From: Microbacterium maritypicum
GTDB taxonomy: Bacteria; Actinomycetota; Actinomycetes; Actinomycetales; Microbacteriaceae
NCBI RefSeq assembly: GCF_008868125.1
Contig: NZ_WAAQ01000001.1
Coordinates: 1,302,001 to 1,366,000 of the forward strand
Length of the DNA: 64,000 bases
Direction of reading: 5' to 3'
Shown: positions 15,582 through 25,025 of the stretch, piece after piece
How the letters are laid out: each line of letters starts with the position of its first letter
How positions within the stretch are numbered: position 1 is the first letter of the stretch
Translations under genes and position numbers: made by a program
The notes under the pieces: generated by a model
Database searches by the model: none
What the model was told of the DNA's origin: nothing
Seen by the model: only the letters and a program-made list of their open reading frames with translations

Positions 15582-17177
15582 ATGGAACGGTACGTGCGCC
15601 TGCGGTGGCTCGGGCTCGTCTTCATCAGCATCGCGGTCTCGCTGATCATCGTCGACTCGACGATCGTCAACGTGGCGATCCCTGCGATCGTGGAGGACCT
15701 CGGCATCACCTCGACCGAGGTGCAGTGGGTGCAGGAGTCGTACACCCTCGTCTTCGCCTCCCTGCTGCTGGTGTTCGGCAGCCTCGCCGATCGCTTCGGC
15801 CGGCGGCGGGTGATGCTCATCGGCGTCGTCGTGTTCGCCCTGTCTTCGGTGTTCGCGGCGCTGTCGCCGGACGGGGGGATGCTGATCCTCGCGCGTCTGG
15901 CCCAGGGCGTCGGTGGAGCGATGATCCTGCCCACGACGCTCTCGATCATCAATGCGACCTTCCGAGGACGCGAGCGAGGGATCGCCTTCGCCGTGTGGGG
16001 GTCGACGATCGGTGGCATGGCTGCTGTCGGCCCTCTCCTGGGCGGGTGGCTCACGACCGCGTATTCGTGGCGGTGGGCCTTCGGGATCAACATCCCCGTC
16101 GGCATCATCATCGTGATCGGCGTGCTGCTGACGGTGGCGGAATCTCGCAGCGATCGCATCAGCAGAGTCGACGTCGTCGGCGCCGCGCTCTCCATCGTGG
16201 CGATGGGGAGCCTCGTGTTCGGCCTCATCGAGGGGCGGACCTACGGCTGGTGGCTCATCGATACGCGTCCGCAGATCGGCGACTGGGCGTGGCCGTGGGA
16301 GCTGTCGCCGATACCCCTGCTCTTCGCGGTCGCCGTCATCGCCGTCATCGGGTTCATCCTCTGGGGCCGCTACCGCGAGCGCGCGGGAAAGTCGACACTG
16401 CTGGCGCTGCGGCTGTTCTCGATTTCCTCCTTCCGCAACGGCAACATCGCGGCGGCGGTGGTGTCGTTGGGGGAGTTCGGCATCATCCTCGCGCTCCCGC
16501 TCTGGCTGCAGTTCGTCCTCGGATTCGAAGCGGTGCAGACCGGATTGCTCCTGCTGGCGCTGGCGGGTGGCTCGTTCCTCGCCAGCGGTGTCGCCGGCGC
16601 CGCGAGCGGGAAGATCGCTCCGGTGTGGGTGGTGCGTGTGGGCCTCATCGCGGAGATCGTCGGTGTCGCGGGGGTGGGGTTCGTGATCGGGCCCGACGCC
16701 TCGTGGGGACCGCTCATCCCGTTCCTGTTCGTCTACGGGCTCGGCGTGGGCCTTGCTACCGCGCAGCTGACAGGAGTCGTGCTCGCCGAGGTCCCGGTCG
16801 CGGACAGTGGGGCCGCATCCGGCACGCAGTCCACCTCGAGGCAGATCGGCGCCGCTCTCGGCGTCGCGGTGCTCGGCACGGTGCTGTTCACCAGCACGGC
16901 TGGAATCCTCGCTTCCTCGCTCGACGAGCGGGGCGTGCCCGCCGCGCAGCGTGACCAGATCGTCTCGGCCGTCGTGGACAGCGCGGGAGCGGCGATCAGC
17001 GGGCTCGAGGCGAACGCTGCGACGGCCGACGCGGCTGAGGATGCGAAGGCGGCATTCTCCGAGGGCACGCGCTATGCGGCGTGGACGGCCGCGGGGTTCC
17101 TCGCGCTCGGGCTGCTGGCGACCGTGTCCCTCGGATCGGCCACGGTGCGCGCCCGCCCCGAAGAGGCCGAGGTCTGA
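15582..17177 (+). CDS. MFS multidrug efflux transporter (DHA2/EmrB-QacA family)
   Basis: A 531-residue, 14-helix major facilitator. The loop 2-3 signature GSLADRFGRRRVM and motif C in helix 5 (GPLLGGWL) mark a drug:H+ antiporter. DSTIVNVAIPAI in TM1 is the DHA2 hallmark with its membrane Asp. It should export hydrophobic drugs or toxic compounds using the proton gradient. The start codon ATG 15582 lacks a ribosome site and sits just after a probable -10 box, so leaderless translation is likely. A MarR-type dyad covers the promoter, which suggests ligand-induced expression by a regulator encoded elsewhere. Confidence 0.9.
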   Translation: MERYVRLRWLGLVFISIAVSLIIVDSTIVNVAIPAIVEDLGITSTEVQWVQESYTLVFASLLLVFGSLADRFGRRRVMLIGVVVFALSSVFAALSPDGGMLILARLAQGVGGAMILPTTLSIINATFRGRERGIAFAVWGSTIGGMAAVGPLLGGWLTTAYSWRWAFGINIPVGIIIVIGVLLTVAESRSDRISRVDVVGAALSIVAMGSLVFGLIEGRTYGWWLIDTRPQIGDWAWPWELSPIPLLFAVAVIAVIGFILWGRYRERAGKSTLLALRLFSISSFRNGNIAAAVVSLGEFGIILALPLWLQFVLGFEAVQTGLLLLALAGGSFLASGVAGAASGKIAPVWVVRVGLIAEIVGVAGVGFVIGPDASWGPLIPFLFVYGLGVGLATAQLTGVVLAEVPVADSGAASGTQSTSRQIGAALGVAVLGTVLFTSTAGILASSLDERGVPAAQRDQIVSAVVDSAGAAISGLEANAATADAAEDAKAAFSEGTRYAAWTAAGFLALGLLATVSLGSATVRARPEEAEV

Positions 17178-17264
17178 GGGACGCGACGGAGTTTCCTCGC
17201 CGTTCGACTTCGGGCGCTACATTCCATGCAGGTGCATTCCGACGTGTGCGCCGGTGAGGAAGCC

Positions 17265-18089
17265 ATGGTCATCTCCCGCCCTGATCTCAGCGTGCTCGCT
17301 CGTGTGCGTGCCTCGTCGTCCCTGCTCGGGCCCAGTGAGTCGCGAGTCGCGGCGCTGATACTGGAGCGGCCGGCGGAGGTCGTCATGTGGTCGACGGCCG
17401 AACTCGCCCAGGCCGCGGGAACGTCGACGGCAACCGTGATCCGCGCATGCCAGAGCCTGGGCTTCCGAGGTTTCCAGCACCTCCGTCTGGAACTCGCTCG
17501 CTCGACGCCCCTGCGTCCCCGGGAAGACGATGTCACCTCCGACACCTTCGATGACGCCGTGGAAGCGGTGCGCCTCGTCCAAGACAGCGTGAATCCGGTG
17601 CTCCTTCAGGAGGCCGCGACGGCGCTGCGTCATGCCCGCCGCGTGGTGCTGGTCAGCAACGGGTTCTCCGGGCCGCCGCTGCAGGACTTCGCGATGCGTC
17701 TCAGCATCCTGGGGCGTCCGGTGGAGGCGCCCGTCGACCCGCTCGCCCAGCAGTTCGCCGTCAACAGCCTGACCGAGGACGACCTGTGCTTCGGGCTGAG
17801 CTACTCCGGTGCGAACGTCCAGACGCTCCGTGCCTGCGCTGCCGCTGCGGACCGCGGAGCACGCGTCGCCGTCGTCACCAGCTTCGCTCGTTCGCCCATC
17901 GGGCGCACCGCCGACATCGTCGTCGCGACGGGTCCTGCAGCCCTGACGCACGACGTCGACCCTTTCCTCGCGCGAATCGGACACACCGTCGTACTGCACG
18001 CGCTGCACTCTGCCCTCGCCAGCGATGTGGCCCCGTCGGACGCTGCGGGCATGCGTCACGTCGTCGCTGAAGCGATCGCCGAGGAGTAG
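17265..18089 (+). CDS. MurR/RpiR-family transcriptional regulator with SIS domain
   Basis: A 274-residue regulator. The N-terminal helix-turn-helix (about 28-70) contains MWSTAELAQAAGTSTATVIRAC. The C-terminal SIS domain (about 110-250) contains VVLVSNGFSG and FGLSYSGANVQTL, a fold that normally binds phosphosugars or similar phosphorylated ligands. GTG/ATG starts at 17226 and 17265 are possible. I choose 17265 because GAGGA lies 4 nt upstream; the 12-bp palindrome ATGCAGGTGCAT (17226-17237) then falls in the leader and could be an autoregulatory site. It precedes, on the same strand, an operon of phosphatases and an ABC importer that it probably controls. Confidence 0.88.
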   Translation: MVISRPDLSVLARVRASSSLLGPSESRVAALILERPAEVVMWSTAELAQAAGTSTATVIRACQSLGFRGFQHLRLELARSTPLRPREDDVTSDTFDDAVEAVRLVQDSVNPVLLQEAATALRHARRVVLVSNGFSGPPLQDFAMRLSILGRPVEAPVDPLAQQFAVNSLTEDDLCFGLSYSGANVQTLRACAAAADRGARVAVVTSFARSPIGRTADIVVATGPAALTHDVDPFLARIGHTVVLHALHSALASDVAPSDAAGMRHVVAEAIAEE

Positions 18090-18170
18090 CGCACCCGACC
18101 GTTCACCTCCCGGCCAGCCGGGCGTCATCGCCGGGTCAGCAGACGGTGACGTACCCCGACTGTAATGACG

Positions 18171-18187
18171 TTTCGTGTGGTTCGAAA
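18171..18187. promoter_or_regulatory. Candidate operator upstream of the phosphatase/ABC operon
   Basis: TTTCG-N7-CGAAA is a perfect inverted repeat 24 nt before the first operon gene. It is in an AT-richer patch of an otherwise GC-rich gap (18090-18211). RpiR-type regulators bind AT-rich dyads of this size, and one is encoded immediately upstream, so this is the most likely site. No -10/-35 pair is certain. Confidence 0.4.
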
Positions 18188-18211
18188 TACATGTAACGGC
18201 GGGACGGTCTC

Positions 18212-18883
18212 ATGCTGGCGATTGACGTGGACGGGCTCTTCAACGTCCGGGCGAGTGACACCAGGAGGCCATGGCTGGTCCGCTCCGGTGCGCCCGAAGC
18301 GCTGAGCGAAGCGGGGGAGAAGCTCCTGATCGCGCTCGGGGTGAGCGTGATCGTCGACCTGCGCGAGCCCGCGGAGAGCGAAGCCGTCGTCCACGGCATC
18401 CCTTCGGCGTCCGTCCCGGTCTACGGCACCGAGCCCCCGGCCACGGGCACCCTCGAGGAGATCTACGAGGGGTTGCTGCGAAGCCGAGGGCGCGCGCTGA
18501 CCGCGGCGGTCGGAGCCATCGCGGATGCCGAGGGTGCAGCCCTGGTCCACTGCACCGCCGGCAAGGACCGCACCGGCCTCGTCGTCGCGCTGGCGCGCTT
18601 CGCCGCGGGGGCGAGCGAGGGCGACGTGGTCGCGGACTACGTGCTCTCCGCACCACAGGTGCGTCCGGTGCGAGGGGAGCATGCCGAGCGCATCGCCGCC
18701 TCTGTCGAAGCCCGGGAACGCGCCGATGTTCTGCGCCTGCACCTGGAGAGCCCCCCGGAGGCCATCGTGCACGCGCTGGCGGTCATCCGCGAGTTCGGCG
18801 GGGCGGAGGAGTACCTCCGCGCACACGGTCTCCGCTCCGATCAGCTCGCGGCGCTGCGCCGCAAGGAAGGGGCGTCGGCATGA
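18212..18883 (+). CDS. Tyrosine/lipid phosphatase, PtpB-like (Y_phosphatase3)
   Basis: A 223-residue protein-tyrosine-phosphatase fold enzyme. The P-loop HCTAGKDRTG has nucleophile Cys about 114 and the invariant Arg, with Lys-Asp inside the loop. The C-x-x-GKDR form is typical of M. tuberculosis PtpB and atypical lipid phosphatases that hydrolyse phosphoinositides as well as phosphotyrosine. VIVDLREPAE near 48-57 carries the usual Asp/Arg after the first strand. No signal peptide, so it is cytosolic. It is the first gene of a run whose ATG-stop overlaps tie it to a phosphoesterase and an ABC importer, so a metabolic phosphomonoester substrate seems likelier than protein phosphotyrosine. Confidence 0.85.
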   Translation: MLAIDVDGLFNVRASDTRRPWLVRSGAPEALSEAGEKLLIALGVSVIVDLREPAESEAVVHGIPSASVPVYGTEPPATGTLEEIYEGLLRSRGRALTAAVGAIADAEGAALVHCTAGKDRTGLVVALARFAAGASEGDVVADYVLSAPQVRPVRGEHAERIAASVEARERADVLRLHLESPPEAIVHALAVIREFGGAEEYLRAHGLRSDQLAALRRKEGASA

Positions 18884-19668
18884 GTCGCGCGACCGGTCGG
18901 TTGACGGTGCTGCACCTCAGTGATGTCCATGCCATGAGCAGCGGCCTTCTGTACGACACCGTGGACGGGTTCGCTCGCCTGCGCGCCGTCGGCGCGTACC
19001 TGCGCGACGCCGGGATCACACCGGAGGCGGTCGTGGTCACCGGCGACCTGGTGCAGCGGGGGAACGCGGATGCCTATCCGGCACTGCGCGAGGCGTTCGA
19101 CGAGCTCGCGGAGATCGCCGGTGTCCCGGTGCTCACCGCGCTCGGCAATCACGACGAGCCGGAGGCCGCGCGGGTGCTGCGCGGCCACGAGCAGACCCAC
19201 CACAGAGTGCATATCGTCGACGAGCTCCGCTTCATCATCCTGGATTCGTCTCGCGGCGAGCTCGGAGTCGACCAGCGGGCGTGGCTCCGCGACGTGCTGC
19301 GCACTCCGCACGGCCTCGGCACGGTCGTCGCTGTTCACCATGCGCCGCTGGGCTCTCCGCTGCCGACACTGGCGAAGGCGGGGCTGCGGGACGCGGACGA
19401 CTTCCTCGACGCCATGGCCGGCTCGGACGTGCGGGCGGTTCTGGCCGGGCACTTCCATCACCCGCTGTCCGCGACCCTGCGCGGCATCCCCGTCTTCGTC
19501 GGTCCCTCGCTGGCCTATCACCAGGTGATGGACGCCGGCCCGAACCGCGTCAGCGGCCACGACCTGGCGATGTTCTCCCTCGTGCATCTGCTGCCGGGCG
19601 GCGTCGCCGTCACCAACGTCGGGCTCGACTCGCCCGCACCGATCTTCTCCTCCGTCATCTCCACCTGA
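18880..19668 (+). CDS. Calcineurin-like metallophosphoesterase (GpdQ/CpdA-type phosphodiesterase)
   Basis: A 262-residue binuclear metallophosphoesterase. Metal ligands are seen in order: LHLSDVHA (Asp, His near 12-14), VVTGDLVQ, ALGNHDEPE, AVHHAPLG and AGHFHHP. This D-x-H, GD, GNHD, H, GHxH pattern and the length fit class III cyclic-nucleotide phosphodiesterases and the glycerophosphodiesterase GpdQ. ATG 18880 overlaps the phosphatase stop by 4 nt (ATGA), fixing the start. No signal peptide. With a lipid-type phosphatase before it and an importer after it, cleavage of an imported phosphodiester is a reasonable guess. Confidence 0.87.
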   Translation: MSRATGRLTVLHLSDVHAMSSGLLYDTVDGFARLRAVGAYLRDAGITPEAVVVTGDLVQRGNADAYPALREAFDELAEIAGVPVLTALGNHDEPEAARVLRGHEQTHHRVHIVDELRFIILDSSRGELGVDQRAWLRDVLRTPHGLGTVVAVHHAPLGSPLPTLAKAGLRDADDFLDAMAGSDVRAVLAGHFHHPLSATLRGIPVFVGPSLAYHQVMDAGPNRVSGHDLAMFSLVHLLPGGVAVTNVGLDSPAPIFSSVIST

Positions 19669-19684
19669 ACCCTGATTGGACACC

Positions 19685-20719
19685 ATGTCATTCCTTCGCA
19701 AGACCGCTCCCGTGGCACTGTTCGGCGTCGCCGCACTCGCCCTCGCCAGCTGCTCCTCGACGCCGGCTCCCGCCGCGACGCCCGAGGAGTCCGCCGCAGC
19801 CCTGGAGCCGGCGACCATCACGCTGTACACCTCCGAGCCGCAGGAGAAGGCCGATGAACTCGTCGCCGCCTTCAACGAGGTCCACCCCGAGATCACCGTC
19901 GAGGTGTTCCGCGCCGGCACCGGCGACCTGACCACTCGAGTCGCGACCGAGCAGGAGTCCGGTGGCATCCAGGCCGACGTCTTCCTCGCCGCCGACGCCG
20001 GCACCTTCGAGGGGTACGCCGCCGACGACCTGCTGCTGAAGTACACGCCGGCGGACGTGGACGCCCTGAATCCCGACGTCGTCGACCCCGAGGGCTTCTA
20101 CACCGGCACCAGGATCATCCCGACCGTCATCGCGTACAACACCGGCATCATCACCGAGGCACCCGAGTCGTGGAAGGACCTCACCGACGCCGAGTACGCC
20201 GACAAGATCGTGATGCCGAACCCCGACGTGTCCGGAGCAGCGGCGTACAACGCCGCCGTGTGGCTGGACGACGACCAGCTGGGTGAGAAGTGGATGACGG
20301 CCCTGGCCGAGAACCGCCCGGTGATCGCCGACAGCAACGGTCCCGTGTCTCAGGCCGTCGCCACGGGCGCGCAGCCCGTCGGCATCGTGGTGGACTACCT
20401 GGTGCGCGAGCTCGCCGCACAGGGGTCGCCCATCGCCGTGTCGTACCCGAGCGAGGGCGTGCCGTACGTGTCCCAGCCGGTCGGCATCTTCGCCGACACC
20501 GACGAAGAGGCAGCATCCAAGGCGTTCGTCGACTTCCTGGTGAGCGCCGCCGGCCAGGAGCTCGCCGTCGAGCAGTCGTACCTGCCGGTGCGCTCCGACG
20601 TCGGCACGCCCGAGGGCGCCCCGTCGATGGATGACATCGAGATCCTCTCCCCGGACCTCGAGACCATCCGCAGCACGCAGGACGCTGCGGTCGAGACCTT
20701 CCGCTCGCTGTTCCTCTAA
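19685..20719 (+). CDS. ABC transporter substrate-binding lipoprotein (Fbp/AfuA-like)
   Basis: A 344-residue type-1/6 solute-binding protein. The signal peptide ends in the lipobox LASC (Cys about 21), followed by a Ser/Thr/Pro/Ala linker, so it is a membrane-anchored lipoprotein. TITLYTSEPQEKADELVAAF is the classic opening of the Fe(III)-type binding-protein family. The tandem tyrosines that bind iron in FbpA are absent, since no YY occurs anywhere. AfuA (hexose phosphates) and PhnS-like (2-aminoethylphosphonate) proteins belong to the same family, and the phosphatase neighbours favour such an organophosphate ligand. The start at 19685 lies 16 nt after the phosphoesterase stop; the ribosome site is weak. 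Confidence 0.87.
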   Translation: MSFLRKTAPVALFGVAALALASCSSTPAPAATPEESAAALEPATITLYTSEPQEKADELVAAFNEVHPEITVEVFRAGTGDLTTRVATEQESGGIQADVFLAADAGTFEGYAADDLLLKYTPADVDALNPDVVDPEGFYTGTRIIPTVIAYNTGIITEAPESWKDLTDAEYADKIVMPNPDVSGAAAYNAAVWLDDDQLGEKWMTALAENRPVIADSNGPVSQAVATGAQPVGIVVDYLVRELAAQGSPIAVSYPSEGVPYVSQPVGIFADTDEEAASKAFVDFLVSAAGQELAVEQSYLPVRSDVGTPEGAPSMDDIEILSPDLETIRSTQDAAVETFRSLFL

Positions 20720-22390
20720 ATGACCGAGATCTCCACTCTCGCCGCGGGTCCGGCATCGCGCCGGGCCCGCGGTGACGGGCGCCGGAGGCTCGACGGCGTC
20801 AGCATCCTCACCCTCGTCCTGTGGCTCGCGTGCGGCGCGTTCATCCTGCTCCCCATCGGCGCGATCCTCGTGCTGGCGAGCCGCGGGCAGCAGGCGGAGG
20901 TGCTCCTCCAGGGCGACGTCCTCGAAGCCGGAGCGAACAGCCTGCTCTCCGCCGGTGTGTCTGCGGTGCTGGCCGTCATCGTCGGCACTGTCTTCGCCGT
21001 GCTCCTGGACCGCACCGACCTGCCGGGGCGGTCTGCGCTTCGCCTGCTCGCTCTGAGCCCACTGCTCATGCCCCCGTTCGTCGGCGCCATCGCATGGCTC
21101 GGAGTCGCGGGCCCCACGAGTCCGCTGAACCTGTGGTGGCGAGACATCTTCGGCGGACCGCTCTGGTCGATCTACGGGGCGGACGGCGTCATCGCGCTGC
21201 TCACGATCCACAGCTATCCCATCGCCATGCTCATCGTCTCCGCGGCGTTGCGCCGTATCCCCACCGACCTGGAGCAGGCCGCGCGGGTCGGAGGCGCAGG
21301 TCCCGTGCGAGCGCTCACCTCGGTGACGATCCCTCTGCTGCGGCCGGCGCTGCTGTCATCGTTCGTATTGATCGCCGTCGGGAACCTCGCCGACTTCGGC
21401 ATCCCGTCGATCATCGGCCTCCCTGAACGCTTCACCACCCTCGCAACCCTCGTCTACCGCTACCTGCAGTCGGGCACCGTCGAGGACCCGCTGGCCGTGG
21501 TCGCGACGATCGGCGTCGTCCTGTTGATCCTGGCGGTCCTCGCCCTCGTCGCCGACGCCATGGTCGGTCGGCGCGGGTGGGAGCTGGATTCGTCGAGCGC
21601 CGTCGTCGAACGCGTCTCCCTGGGCCGCGCCCGTGGGGGACTGGGGGTGGCGATGTGGCTCGTGGTGCTCCTCATCACGGTCCTCCCGCTCTTCGCCCTG
21701 CTCACGCAGACGCTGCTGCGTGCTCCCGGCGTGCCGCTCACCTGGGACAACCTCACCCTCGACCACCTCGTCCGCGCGCTCACCACGCGCAGCGCGCTGG
21801 AGGGGGCGGCGAACTCCGTGATGCTCGCGATCATGGCGGCCGTGATCTGCGGCGTCGTGGGTCTGGCCATCGGGCTGCTCGTGGCGCGGGTGCCGAGCCG
21901 AGCCAACCGAGCGCTGGGGGCCGTCGCCGTGGTGCCGCAGGCCGTCCCCGGCATCGTCATCGCGGTCGCATGGCTGGTGCTCGCGCCTGCGTTGGGGCTG
22001 TTCAACACGCCGTGGCTTATCCTCGCGGCCTACGTCACGTCGTTCACAGCGCTCGTCGTGCAGGCCGTCGCCGCTCCGCTCTCCTCGACACCGACCAGTG
22101 CGGAAGAGGCGGCGCGGATCGGCGGCGCGACACGGGTGCGCGCCCTGATCGACATCTCCTGTCGGATGGCGGCACCGGCCGCGCTCTCCGGCGCGGTGAT
22201 CGTCGCGGTCACCGCCGTGCGCGAGCTCACGCTGTCGGTACTCCTGCTGTCGCCAGGGGCGCAGACCCTCGGCGTCGCGATCTTCAGCTTTCAGCAGGCG
22301 GGTGCCTTCAGCACCGCCGCCGCATGGTCGCTCATCGTGGCCGTGCTCGGACTCGCTGTCATCGGGTTCGCGATCCCGAAGACGAAGTAA
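20720..22390 (+). CDS. ABC transporter permease, fused double domain (FbpB/AfuB-like)
   Basis: A 556-residue permease made of two homologous halves, each with about six helices (residues about 30-285 and 305-555). Each half holds the EAA-type loop contacting the ATPase: LEQAARVGGAGPVRALTSVT near 194 and AEEAARIGGATRVRALIDIS near 465. The fused form is typical of FbpB/AfuB importers. The start codon follows the lipoprotein stop with no gap (TAA-ATG), indicating coupled translation. It provides the membrane channel for the importer. Confidence 0.9.
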   Translation: MTEISTLAAGPASRRARGDGRRRLDGVSILTLVLWLACGAFILLPIGAILVLASRGQQAEVLLQGDVLEAGANSLLSAGVSAVLAVIVGTVFAVLLDRTDLPGRSALRLLALSPLLMPPFVGAIAWLGVAGPTSPLNLWWRDIFGGPLWSIYGADGVIALLTIHSYPIAMLIVSAALRRIPTDLEQAARVGGAGPVRALTSVTIPLLRPALLSSFVLIAVGNLADFGIPSIIGLPERFTTLATLVYRYLQSGTVEDPLAVVATIGVVLLILAVLALVADAMVGRRGWELDSSSAVVERVSLGRARGGLGVAMWLVVLLITVLPLFALLTQTLLRAPGVPLTWDNLTLDHLVRALTTRSALEGAANSVMLAIMAAVICGVVGLAIGLLVARVPSRANRALGAVAVVPQAVPGIVIAVAWLVLAPALGLFNTPWLILAAYVTSFTALVVQAVAAPLSSTPTSAEEAARIGGATRVRALIDISCRMAAPAALSGAVIVAVTAVRELTLSVLLLSPGAQTLGVAIFSFQQAGAFSTAAAWSLIVAVLGLAVIGFAIPKTK

Positions 22391-22404
22391 CAGAAAGGGT
22401 GCCC

Positions 22405-23472
22405 ATGGCCTCCGTCACACTCGAACACGTCTCTCTGCGATACCGCTCCGGTGCCGTCGGCCTCGCCGACGTCGACCTGCAGGTCGCGGACGGGGAGTTC
22501 CTCGCTCTCGTCGGCCCTTCGGGATCCGGGAAGACGACGCTGCTGCGCAGTATCGCCGGGTTCTTGACTCCCACAGCGGGCCGTATCCTGCTCGATGACC
22601 GCGTCATCGCCGGTCCCGGTGTCGCCGTGCCGCCGGAGCAGCGCCAGCTGGGGATGGTGTTCCAGCAGCATGCGGTCTGGCCGCACTGGGACGTGGGTCG
22701 CAACGTCGAATATCCGTTGCGACGCGCCAAGGTGCCCCTCGCCGAGCGCCGCACCCGTGTCGGCGAAGCGCTCGACCTCGTGGGACTCGCCGGTTACGAG
22801 CGCCGGGACCCGGCGACCCTCTCCGGCGGGCAGCGGCAGCGTGTCGCCCTGGCCCGGGCGCTGGTCGCCCGCCCCCGGGTGCTCCTGCTGGACGAAGCGC
22901 TCTCCGCCCTCGATGAGCCGCTGCGTGACCGGCTTCGCCTCGAGCTGCACACCCTCACCCGGGAGATGGGCCTGACCGTCGTGCACGTGACCCACGACCG
23001 CTCAGAGGCTCTCGCGCTCGCCGACAGGGTCGCGGTGCTGGATGGGGGCCGTCTCCAGCAGGTCGACACCCCGTCGAACCTGCTCGCCCGCCCCGACAGT
23101 CCGTTCGTCGCGAAGTTCCTCTCCGACGCGACGCTGGTCAACGGGCGCGTCACCGACGGCCTGTTCTCCGCCGGCGACCACCCGCTGACCGTGCCCTGCC
23201 CTGGAGTGGCGAATGCGGTGCGGGCTACCGCTGCCGTGCTTCCGGCCGCCGTCACCCTCACTCCCGGCGGTGATGCCACCGTCCGCTCCTCGCTTTTCAC
23301 ACCGGACGGCAGCGACGTCGTCGTGGACTGGCGCGGCACGCATCTGCGCGTGCGCACCCACGGCAGCCGGCACCGGGTCGGCGACGCCGTCTCCGTCCAC
23401 ATCACGGATGCGGTGGTCTACCTGCAGGCTGTGGAAGACGCGCCCGAGCGCGAGGCGGTGATGTCGGCATGA
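22405..23472 (+). CDS. ABC transporter ATP-binding protein (FbpC/AfuC-like)
   Basis: A 355-residue ATPase. The Walker A GPSGSGKTT (near 37), Q-loop MVFQQHAVWPHW, signature LSGGQRQRVALARAL, Walker B VLLLDEALSALDE and switch HVTHDR are all present. The C-terminal part (about 240-355) is a regulatory TOBE-like domain. ATG 22405 is supported by GAAAGG 6 nt upstream; an in-frame GTG at 22399 is too close to it. The stop overlaps the next gene by 4 nt. It powers the importer encoded by the two preceding genes. Confidence 0.92.
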   Translation: MASVTLEHVSLRYRSGAVGLADVDLQVADGEFLALVGPSGSGKTTLLRSIAGFLTPTAGRILLDDRVIAGPGVAVPPEQRQLGMVFQQHAVWPHWDVGRNVEYPLRRAKVPLAERRTRVGEALDLVGLAGYERRDPATLSGGQRQRVALARALVARPRVLLLDEALSALDEPLRDRLRLELHTLTREMGLTVVHVTHDRSEALALADRVAVLDGGRLQQVDTPSNLLARPDSPFVAKFLSDATLVNGRVTDGLFSAGDHPLTVPCPGVANAVRATAAVLPAAVTLTPGGDATVRSSLFTPDGSDVVVDWRGTHLRVRTHGSRHRVGDAVSVHITDAVVYLQAVEDAPEREAVMSA

Positions 23473-24008
23473 CCCTCGCACTGGTCAGGCACGGACGCAC
23501 CGCATGGAACCGCGAGCGCAGAATGCAGGGGCAGTCCGACATCGCTCTCGATCCGGTCGGCGAAGCCCAAGCCGAAGCGGCCGGTCGTCTGCTGGCGACG
23601 GCGGTCTGGACACGGATCGTCTCGTCTCCTCTGCGACGTGCCTCGCAGTCGGCCGAGATCATCCGTAGGCACATGCCCCATGCGGAGTACCGCGTGCATG
23701 ACGGCCTCGTCGAACGTCACTACGGTGAGGCCGACGGTCTGCAGGTCACCGAAGCGTGGGAGCGATGGCCCGACCAGAACTATCCCGGCGCAGAATCCGT
23801 CGCTGCCACCGCCGACCGCGCCGCCAGCGCGCTGAGAGAGCTTCTCCGCGACGACGTGGACACCGTCGTCGTGGCTCACGGGACCCTGTTGCGGCTCGGC
23901 ATCGAAGCCGTGACGGGGCACCCGTGCTCACGGCTTTCGAACGGAGACGTCGTGTTGCTCGAGGGGAGTGAAGCCGTCGGGTACACCGCACGGTGGTTGA
24001 CGGAGTAG
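23469..24008 (+). CDS. Histidine phosphatase superfamily protein (GpmB/CobC type)
   Basis: A 179-residue phosphatase. The catalytic RHGRT motif lies at residues 7-11, the second Arg in VSSPLRRASQSAE, the acid in VERHYGEADGL and the second His in VVVAHGTLLRLG. The size fits small GpmB/CobC/PhoE-type phosphomonoesterases rather than phosphoglycerate mutase. It is the last gene of the operon (ATGA overlap with the ATPase) and is followed by a hairpin terminator. Three mechanistically different phosphoesterases in one operon with an importer is unusual and suggests stepwise breakdown of a phosphorylated nutrient. Confidence 0.87.
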   Translation: MTLALVRHGRTAWNRERRMQGQSDIALDPVGEAQAEAAGRLLATAVWTRIVSSPLRRASQSAEIIRRHMPHAEYRVHDGLVERHYGEADGLQVTEAWERWPDQNYPGAESVAATADRAASALRELLRDDVDTVVVAHGTLLRLGIEAVTGHPCSRLSNGDVVLLEGSEAVGYTARWLTE

Positions 24009-24038
24009 CCCCCCGCGCGCCACGGAGCACGAACGACA

Positions 24039-24068
24039 GAAGCCGCCTGGAATCAGGCGGCTTCTCTC
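24039..24068 (+). terminator. Intrinsic terminator of the phosphatase/ABC operon
   Basis: An 11-bp perfect stem (GAAGCCGCCTG, 24039-24049) with loop GAAT pairs with CAGGCGGCTTC (24054-24064) and is followed by TCTC. It lies 31 nt after the histidine phosphatase stop. The tail is poor in T, as is common in GC-rich actinobacteria. Confidence 0.8.
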
Positions 24069-24120
24069 GTGATGAAGAACTTCATGTACGGGCTCACGGA
24101 CGTGACCCGTACAACCTTTG

Positions 24121-24193
24121 TGCCCCCGACAGGAGTCGAACCTGCGACCTACGGTACCGGAAACCGGCGCTCTATCCACTGAGCTACGGAGGC
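24121..24193 (-). tRNA. tRNA-Arg (anticodon CCG)
   Basis: A 73-nt cloverleaf on the minus strand. The acceptor stem GCCTCCG pairs with CGGGGGC (one G-T pair), the D stem is GCTC/GAGC, the anticodon loop TTCCGGT carries CCG, and the T arm is GCAGG-TTCGACT-CCTGT. The anticodon stem has one C-T mismatch at its top. CCA is not encoded. It reads CGG codons. argS, which charges it, starts about 0.9 kb away on the opposite strand. Confidence 0.93.
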
Positions 24194-24209
24194 GTACCGA
24201 TCGACAATA

Positions 24210-25025
24210 TCACTCGTCGGGGGTGGACTCCGACCCACCGGCCTCGGTGACCGGGGCGGTGCGCAGTTCATCGAGGGCGGCGGCGAGTCTCTCCGCCAGG
24301 TAGCGGTGCCCGTTCGTGGAGGGATGCTTGCGCCCCACCTCCACGTCGATCACGTCGAGATAGTTCTGTGCGGTGATCCACTCCTGGGCGATCGGGGAGA
24401 TGTACCACCAGCCACGTGCGGCGGCGAGCGCGGAGAGATCGGTGTCGATGCGTGCGGTGGCCGCTCCGACGGGGAGCTCGTGCGGAGCGGGGCCGAGCAC
24501 CACGATCGTCGCCTGCGGGTACGTGGCGGCCAACGTGTCCCACGCGGCGTTCACGGCGTCACGGTAGCCGGCGGCGCCCTGTGCACGGTCGTTGATCGAT
24601 CCCTGGATGATGACCAGGTCGGGAGTGGCGGACGGGTCGAGTGCGGCGATGCGCTCTCCGAAGGTGGGGCCGTCGAGTCCGGGCTTGAGATATCCGCTCC
24701 CGCGGACGCCGTCCACGATCGTCTCGCCGCCGAGAAGGTCGGCGAGGAGGTAGGCGTAGCCGAGGGTCGGGACGGTCGCGGCAGAGCCGTAGGTCCACGA
24801 GTCCCCGAAGACGAGCACCGTGGGCTTCTCCGGCAGCACGAGCGGTGCCGGTGCGATGACCGTGGACGTCTCGGATGCGCCATCGGCGGCGGCGCTGATC
24901 GGGGTCGTCGCCGGTGCGGGGATCCACGGACGCCACACCCCGAGAACCACGGCTGCGACGGCGAGCAGAAGCCCGGCGACGATGCCCGCCGCACCCACAC
25001 GGCGTCGGGCGGTGGGCGGCTTCAT
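24210..25025 (-). CDS. SGNH/GDSL-family hydrolase, membrane-anchored
   Basis: A 271-residue protein with an N-terminal membrane helix (about 12-36) and an extracytoplasmic SGNH-hydrolase domain. The catalytic Ser is in VFGDSWTYG (near 90), the oxyanion Asn in GSINDRA, and the late His in HPSTNGHRY. Such enzymes are esterases or lipases, or cell-wall and polysaccharide deacetylases. I choose ATG 25025 because the upstream GTG at 25043 has no ribosome site. The substrate is unknown. It stands alone between tRNA-Arg and argS, read away from argS. Confidence 0.82.
   Translation of the reverse strand: MKPPTARRRVGAAGIVAGLLLAVAAVVLGVWRPWIPAPATTPISAAADGASETSTVIAPAPLVLPEKPTVLVFGDSWTYGSAATVPTLGYAYLLADLLGGETIVDGVRGSGYLKPGLDGPTFGERIAALDPSATPDLVIIQGSINDRAQGAAGYRDAVNAAWDTLAATYPQATIVVLGPAPHELPVGAATARIDTDLSALAAARGWWYISPIAQEWITAQNYLDVIDVEVGRKHPSTNGHRYLAERLAAALDELRTAPVTEAGGSESTPDE

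Follow-up and report, generated by a model that had tools for sequence, protein, structure and literature searches.

Results

A conserved regulator and six-gene operon in Microbacterium maritypicum

We examined a 64-kb window of the 3.67-Mb Microbacterium maritypicum genome (assembly GCF_008868125.1, contig NZ_WAAQ01000001.1, positions 1,302,001 to 1,366,000; positions below count from the start of this window), in which a regulator gene is followed by six closely spaced genes encoding an ATP-binding cassette (ABC) importer and three phosphoesterases. The six open reading frames (ORFs) span 18212–24008, all start with ATG, and are separated by −4, +16, 0, +14, and −4 nt. The regulator gene (17226–18089, plus strand, with a second possible in-frame ATG at 17265) ends upstream of them, the first ATG beginning 122 nt beyond its end. 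In gene order, the Pfam families are HTH_6 plus SIS, Y_phosphatase3, Metallophos, SBP_bac families, two stretches of BPD_transp_1, ABC_tran, and His_Phos_1. A preliminary description made from the sequence alone had reported six such genes behind an RpiR/SIS regulator and a dyad, and its coordinates, spacing, and family assignments were confirmed, with one correction concerning the phosphodiesterase (see below).

The regulator matches HTH_6 (62.5 bits) and SIS (40.3 bits), both over the Pfam cut-off, which places it in the MurR/RpiR family. The genes behind it, all on the plus strand, encode a PtpB-like phosphatase (18212–18883; Y_phosphatase3, motif HCTAGKDRTG), a class III calcineurin-type phosphodiesterase (18880–19668), a lipoprotein substrate-binding protein resembling AfuA and PhnS2 (19685–20719), a fused ABC permease (20720–22390; two BPD_transp_1 stretches, Pfam 78.9 bits), an ABC ATPase (22405–23472; ABC_tran, 119.6 bits), and a branch 1 histidine phosphatase (23469–24008; His_Phos_1, 132.7 bits). 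The binding protein carries an N-terminal lipobox, whereas the three phosphoesterases, judged by eye, have no signal peptide and would therefore act after import, as previously proposed.

Conservation of the gene cluster across Actinobacteria

A protein-guided scan of named genomes yielded 67 loci, of which 57 (L015–L071) hold clear relatives of the binding protein; ten weak matches were excluded, and a family was counted as present in a locus at >60 bits. Conserved synteny had been set beforehand as the test that could overturn the proposed grouping, and all seven families are present in 42 of the 57 loci, with a regulator homologue in 54. Among the incomplete loci, five lack only the histidine phosphatase, two only the PtpB-like phosphatase, and three both, while two retain the importer alone and one is without the regulator; contig ends truncate the remaining two (L036 and L054), L032 likewise stops early, and L042 is in fragments. 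Counted by family, the histidine phosphatase is missing from 12 loci (some of them truncated at contig ends), the PtpB-like phosphatase from 7, and the phosphodiesterase from 2, making the phosphodiesterase, at 55 of 57, the most constant enzyme. Order and strand are the same in 37 of the 41 loci where the seven families form separate best ORFs; in the other four (L062–L065, from Yaniella and a Micrococcaceae metagenome-assembled genome), the histidine phosphatase gene lies ahead of the regulator.

The surroundings of the block vary. Of 167 outside families common to at least two loci, counted from open frames on both strands, some of which are not genes, 133 occur under one genus label, 33 under two, and 1 under four. 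Because the flanks are mostly genus-specific, the block stays together in differing surroundings, and no gene family outside it recurs widely in the 57-locus survey. With 42 of 57 loci complete and 37 of 41 in one order and strand, the seven-gene grouping is beyond chance. By record title, the hosts are chiefly Microbacteriaceae, together with Yaniella, Auritidibacter, Nesterenkonia, and Sediminivirga. The binding protein occurs in 11 of 150 genomes of the family (our own genome counted), in 6 of 376 genomes of the order at E 1e-60, and in 40 of 346 genomes of the phylum at E 1e-25, 4 of the 40 scoring >400 bits. One record titled Vibrio cholerae strain 35D (L016, WNZI01000002.1) contains a cluster with a binding protein that shares 81% identity with that of the window; it is probably a mislabelled or contaminated assembly.

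A probable operator ahead of the six genes

The dyad, TTTCGTGTGGTTCGAAA, occupies 18171–18187, 24 nt ahead of the first ATG. The window has a single instance of its form, TTTCG-N7-CGAAA, which appears in none of 100 shuffles. Across the family, the site approximates TTTCAY-N5-RTGAAA, and the consensus TTTCRY-N5-RYGAAA is matched at ≥10 of 12 positions between regulator and first gene in 37 of 54 loci, compared with 3.4% of the remaining segments of these loci and 6.9% of dinucleotide-shuffled sequences. At ≥11 of 12 the figures are 25 of 54 loci against 0.4% of controls; the consensus was derived from these same loci, so match counts are biased upward. A consensus-free comparison of palindromic arms alone gave 22 of 54 loci versus 13%. 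The window dyad itself scores 11 of 12 and is identical in sequence to that of L015. Because 37 of 54 loci match at ≥10 of 12 against 3–7% of controls, we regard the dyad as a probable operator. The conserved order and this site uphold the earlier view of a single operon with its own RpiR/SIS regulator. In the regulator, Ser148, Ser194, and Ser219 are kept in ≥95% of 54 sequences and presumably lie at the phosphosugar-binding positions of SIS domains.

The only full match to the consensus in the M. maritypicum genome lies elsewhere, at C1:733878-733894 (L132:7879), ~100 nt before a gene that we take, from its sequence, to be nicotinamidase-like. At the other end of the operon, a hairpin at 24035–24064 (plus strand), spotted by eye, is a tentative terminator candidate; a terminator scan of 17100–24300 called none. 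A tRNA-Arg (CCG) gene lies immediately past the operon on the minus strand (24120–24193).

A phosphate-type pocket in the binding protein

The three top profile matches of the binding protein are AfuA (88.2 bits), 8x1a (84.6 bits), which is VcA0625, named as a glucose-6-phosphate-binding protein, and P5PA (77.9 bits), with iron binders scoring ≤71.2 bits. P5PA holds phosphate at three helix starts comprising T37, S147-G148-T149, and S183 (PMC8427247, in excerpt). In an alignment read by hand, the phosphate-holding residues of P5PA and AfuA correspond to T79, S183-G184-A185, and S217, only Thr149 being lost. A structure model of the protein (mean predicted local distance difference test, 87.9) has helices beginning at 79, 184, and 218, matching the P5PA description. 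Alignment and model thus suggest that the binding protein retains the phosphate-holding end of an AfuA/P5PA-type pocket. The sugar end is less well preserved: the AfuA sugar-coordinating residues H205, D206, and E229 (PMC4546632, in excerpt) align, again by hand, with V236, D237, and V262, so that two of the three are lost and D206 alone is kept.

All three Fbp-like control rows in the alignment read NHYY, whereas the cluster clade has VVDY, VVDS, or VVDF. FbpA iron-binding proteins use an adjacent tyrosine pair. We rejected an FbpA-type Fe(III) site here, since the pair is missing: some members have Ser or Phe in place of Y238, and the second Tyr is absent. The preliminary assignment of a phosphate-type rather than iron-type site therefore holds.

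The best NCBIfam models for the binding protein, permease, and ATPase are PhnS2, PhnU2, and PhnT2, but membership fails at the cut-offs (130 of 393, 145 of 593, and 274 of 458 bits, respectively). Relatives of the binding protein are common: of 7996 candidates scored, 633 had E values of 1e-10 or lower. Iron(III) transport names appear, by our count, on 29 of the 120 relatives listed and make up most of the names that are specific. Likewise, 14 of 16 plasmid-borne permeases (see below) are annotated as iron ABC transporter permeases.

The phosphoesterases and their association with the importer

The phosphodiesterase had been described as GpdQ-like. In a comparison with PDB proteins, it scores 123.7 bits against Rv0805 and 26.5 bits against the 2zo9/3d03 enzyme, which we take to be GpdQ, and a GpdQ-type protein was rejected as its closest kin. 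The class III motif, D-(X)n-GD-(X)n-GNH[E/D]-(X)n-H-(X)n-GHXH (PMC4222275, in excerpt), is intact as D15, G55-D56, G89-N90-H91-D92, H154, and G190-H191-x-H193. Although some Rv0805-like protein is found in 110 of the 150 family genomes, the scores are bimodal, with 10 genomes at ≥267 bits and the remainder at ≤147 bits. The high-scoring, cluster-type enzyme is present in 10 of the 11 genomes that have the binding protein and in none of the other 139, where the best score (146.8 bits) belongs to a separate Rv0805-like paralogue. The eleventh genome (G064) shows only the importer in the 15 kb examined. M. maritypicum itself has a second Rv0805-like gene (C1:1406214), 39% identical to that of the cluster. 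This distribution indicates that the phosphodiesterase is a cluster-specific paralogue and part of the unit.

The first gene product combines the HCxxGKDR loop with a PtpB fold and is thus of PtpB type; beyond PtpB-like entries, its nearest neighbors include Siw14, an inositol-pyrophosphate phosphatase. Cluster-type versions (≥128 bits) occur in 10 family genomes, 8 of which have the binding protein. One of the remaining two (G071) pairs the enzyme with a histidine phosphatase, with no importer in the 16 kb examined. A further histidine phosphatase–PtpB-like pair close to the cluster types (L144:7049-8524; 216 and 274 bits) has neither importer nor phosphodiesterase in 16 kb examined. In the histidine phosphatase, the catalytic residues R7-H8-G9, R57, E82, and H137 are kept in ≥95% of 44 sequences.

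Related importers accompany other phosphoesterases

A tblastn search of plasmids returned 105 records, all <60% identical, from which we examined 17 annotated regions picked blind to their neighbors, some from the top rows and some evenly spread. Eleven of the 17 combine the same importer type with a metallo-β-lactamase (MBL)-fold hydrolase (a Pfam check covered four of the MBL proteins) and a phosphatase. The latter is a histidine phosphatase in L146, L148, L149, L160, L161, and L165, with an additional HAD phosphatase in L148 and L160; SurE in L147, L151, and L157; and an annotated "protein phosphatase," with a DSPc match below cut-off only, in L152 and L154. The L165 hydrolase is annotated as a ribonuclease and has the same length as the L149 MBL protein, of which L165 seems a close copy; these two are Enterobacter plasmids, one of them typed conjugative. 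The L147 MBL protein is closest among solved structures to the ribonuclease TTHA0252 (64.7 bits), and the L148 HAD protein matches the PNKP phosphatase domain. Elsewhere, PhoX lies near the importer in L153 and a metallophosphoesterase in L156, while L150, L155, L158, and L159 have no phosphoesterase nearby among annotated products. The cluster's histidine phosphatase profile recognizes the corresponding protein at 66–99 bits in 5 of 16 plasmid regions tested, and the annotated regulators are DeoR/GlpR, sugar-binding, LacI, or MurR/RpiR. These proteobacterial relatives strengthen the importer–phosphoesterase pairing first noted in M. maritypicum.

In a tree, 15 of 16 plasmid-type sequences are sister to the actinobacterial clade (support 0.97). 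The importer-only loci L025 and L068 branch within the cluster clade and appear to have lost the enzymes. Other importer-only loci (L113, L114, and L138–L140) branch lower, with weak support, and argue that the importer can function on its own. In two related genomes of this group, a gene lies directly upstream of the importer (L138:6292-7614, L139:6679-7974), the L138 copy giving a weak Meth_synt_2 match (34.7 bits). A further group from other actinobacterial families (L116–L119) has a different pocket and DUF6390 neighbors in 4 of 4 loci, with hypA near the L116 importer; this clade may serve hydrogenase maturation. The plasmid regions thus show an importer that is retained and phosphoesterase partners that are exchanged.

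Discussion

From the gene order and its conservation, the operator-like site, the intact catalytic motifs, the phosphate-type pocket, the cluster-specific phosphodiesterase, and the different phosphoesterases that accompany this importer type in other phyla, we infer the pathway as a whole, including transport direction, reaction order, repression, and inducer. On balance, we favor an inducible operon for the import of an organophosphate (probably a phosphodiester) and its hydrolysis in the cytoplasm while the RpiR/SIS protein senses an intermediate. The AfuA/PhnS2-type lipoprotein would capture the compound extracellularly, for import by the fused permease and the ATPase. The class III metallophosphodiesterase could then open the phosphodiester (or cyclic phosphate), and the PtpB-type and histidine phosphatases would take phosphate off the resulting monoester, leaving inorganic phosphate and the unphosphorylated alcohol or sugar. 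The regulator would repress at the dyad just upstream until released by a phosphosugar-like intermediate, which the phosphatases would later clear. Literature searches, judged in part from the matches listed, found no paper describing this cluster.

The main reason to consider a phosphodiester is that the phosphodiesterase is the most constant enzyme, and the sister systems, which join phosphodiesterase-type with monoesterase-type enzymes of unrelated folds, support a scheme of diester in, phosphate off. The stepwise use of a polyphosphorylated polyol envisaged in the preliminary description is weakened, because the PtpB-like (7 of 57) or histidine phosphatase (12 of 57) may be missing where the phosphodiesterase is in only 2 of 57, and a specific substrate such as glycerophosphoinositol gained no specific support. 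Neighboring genes point to sugars: an importer-only copy lies directly behind tal-pgi-zwf-pgl in Nesterenkonia (L068), and a cluster adjoins chvE-gguAB in L137. No single clue among those for sugar, nucleotide, or inositol is decisive. We place a sugar or polyol phosphodiester first, tentatively; a (2',3'-cyclic) nucleotide and a sugar phosphomonoester are equally ranked and both rather unlikely, some other compound is a little less likely again, and an inositol phosphate is the most doubtful.

The operon might instead scavenge RNA breakdown products, importing 2',3'-cyclic or 3'-nucleotides whose ring the phosphodiesterase opens before the phosphatases free nucleoside and phosphate. Rv0805 and SpdA, the nearest relatives in PDB and NCBIfam searches, prefer 2',3'-cyclic nucleoside monophosphates, Rv0805 being ~150-fold more active on these than on the 3',5' forms (PMC4222275, in excerpt), and sister systems carry a ribonuclease-type MBL (one tested), the SurE nucleotidase, a PNKP-like phosphatase (one tested), and, in one region, PhoX with a nucleoside hydrolase nearby. 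However, the sugar-metabolism neighbors in L068 and L137 point elsewhere, and no outside family recurs widely around the actinobacterial cluster, so we consider this account improbable. We give the same low standing to a plain sugar-phosphate monoester importer like AfuABC, with phosphoesterases that detoxify or trim. Such an importer would suit the top matches (AfuA, VcA0625, and P5PA), the position behind a pentose-phosphate operon in L068, and the SIS-domain regulator, but AfuA H205 and E229 have become V236 and V262, leaving D206 (D237) alone, and the most constant enzyme, a phosphodiesterase, would be needless for a monoester.

The names in databases suggest two further roles. Uptake of Fe(III) or metal-citrate, with the phosphatases present for other reasons, would agree with the iron names on 29 of 120 listed relatives and 14 of 16 plasmid permeases and with the nearness in fold of MctA and Fbp structures; yet it leaves the missing tyrosine pair, three phosphoesterases, and a SIS regulator without a reason, and we find it very hard to credit. 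Phosphonate (2-aminoethylphosphonate) uptake, for which the best NCBIfam names of all three transporter parts speak, seems even more remote, as the scores fall far under cut-off and the genome has no PhnJ match and no phosphonatase over cut-off, which covers the PhnJ and PhnX routes to carbon–phosphorus cleavage. No carbon–phosphorus cleaving gene appears in the product names of the 17 plasmid regions, and phosphonates are an unlikely substrate.

Extending import followed by cytoplasmic hydrolysis beyond this operon, one could speculate, with considerably more doubt, that it belongs to an undescribed, widespread class of such systems in Actinobacteria and Proteobacteria. Here, one importer clade (pocket GT / SGAA / NG / D or E) would bring in intact phosphodiesters of one class, for which phosphodiesterases of unrelated kinds (calcineurin-type, MBL ribonuclease-type) and phosphatases (PtpB-like, histidine, HAD, SurE, PhoX) would have been recruited repeatedly. 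The substrate could then be a nutrient not yet recognized in the environment, for example cyclic nucleotides released in RNA turnover or wall-derived phosphodiesters of sugars. The swap of phosphodiesterase families between phyla is a natural experiment that should point to the substrate. If the favored reading of the operon is right, many bacteria hold a ready-made route that takes whole phosphate esters inside before cleavage and escapes the usual search for secreted phosphatases. Because relatives are common and their specific names mostly indicate iron(III) transport, that annotation may conceal a pathway for organic phosphorus.

Comparison with known systems

Several described systems share parts with this operon. 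Rv0805 and SpdA belong to the same family as the cluster phosphodiesterase and have the same metal-binding motif, but the cluster enzyme is a distinct paralogue. The pyridoxal-5-phosphate-binding protein P5PA (PMC8427247, in excerpt) resembles the binding protein in the phosphate end of its pocket and the three helix starts, whereas its H203 maps to V236 and its operon differs. The AfuABC hexose-phosphate importer differs at the sugar end (H205 to V236, E229 to V262), and the available excerpt of PMC4546632 describes no phosphoesterases alongside it. PhnS2/PhnU2/PhnT2, a putative 2-aminoethylphosphonate transporter in NCBIfam, supplies the best models for all three transporter parts, but the scores are far under cut-offs, and neither PhnJ nor a phosphonatase over cut-off is present in the genome. 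UgpBAEC-UgpQ, in which UgpQ is of the GDPD family, likewise imports phosphodiesters and then hydrolyzes them in the cytoplasm. GDPD gave no match to any protein of the cluster at E 0.001, and the two GDPD matches in the genome lie elsewhere.

The closest parallel is the agrocinopine acc operon of Agrobacterium, which comprises the binding protein AccA with AccBCDE, the phosphodiesterase AccF, the phosphatase AccG, and the repressor AccR, on which a sugar-2-phosphate freed by AccF acts (PMC4526662, in excerpt). All four kinds of part, namely a binding protein with an ABC importer, a cytoplasmic phosphodiesterase, a phosphatase, and a repressor, have counterparts here, but as an AfuA/PhnS2-type binding protein, a calcineurin-type phosphodiesterase, PtpB-like and histidine phosphatases, and an RpiR regulator that would take the part of the product-sensing repressor. 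To our knowledge, the acc proteins are not homologous to those of the cluster, the two systems being compared by description. By this analogy, the operon would work like agrocinopine acc, following the same logic with parts drawn from other families.

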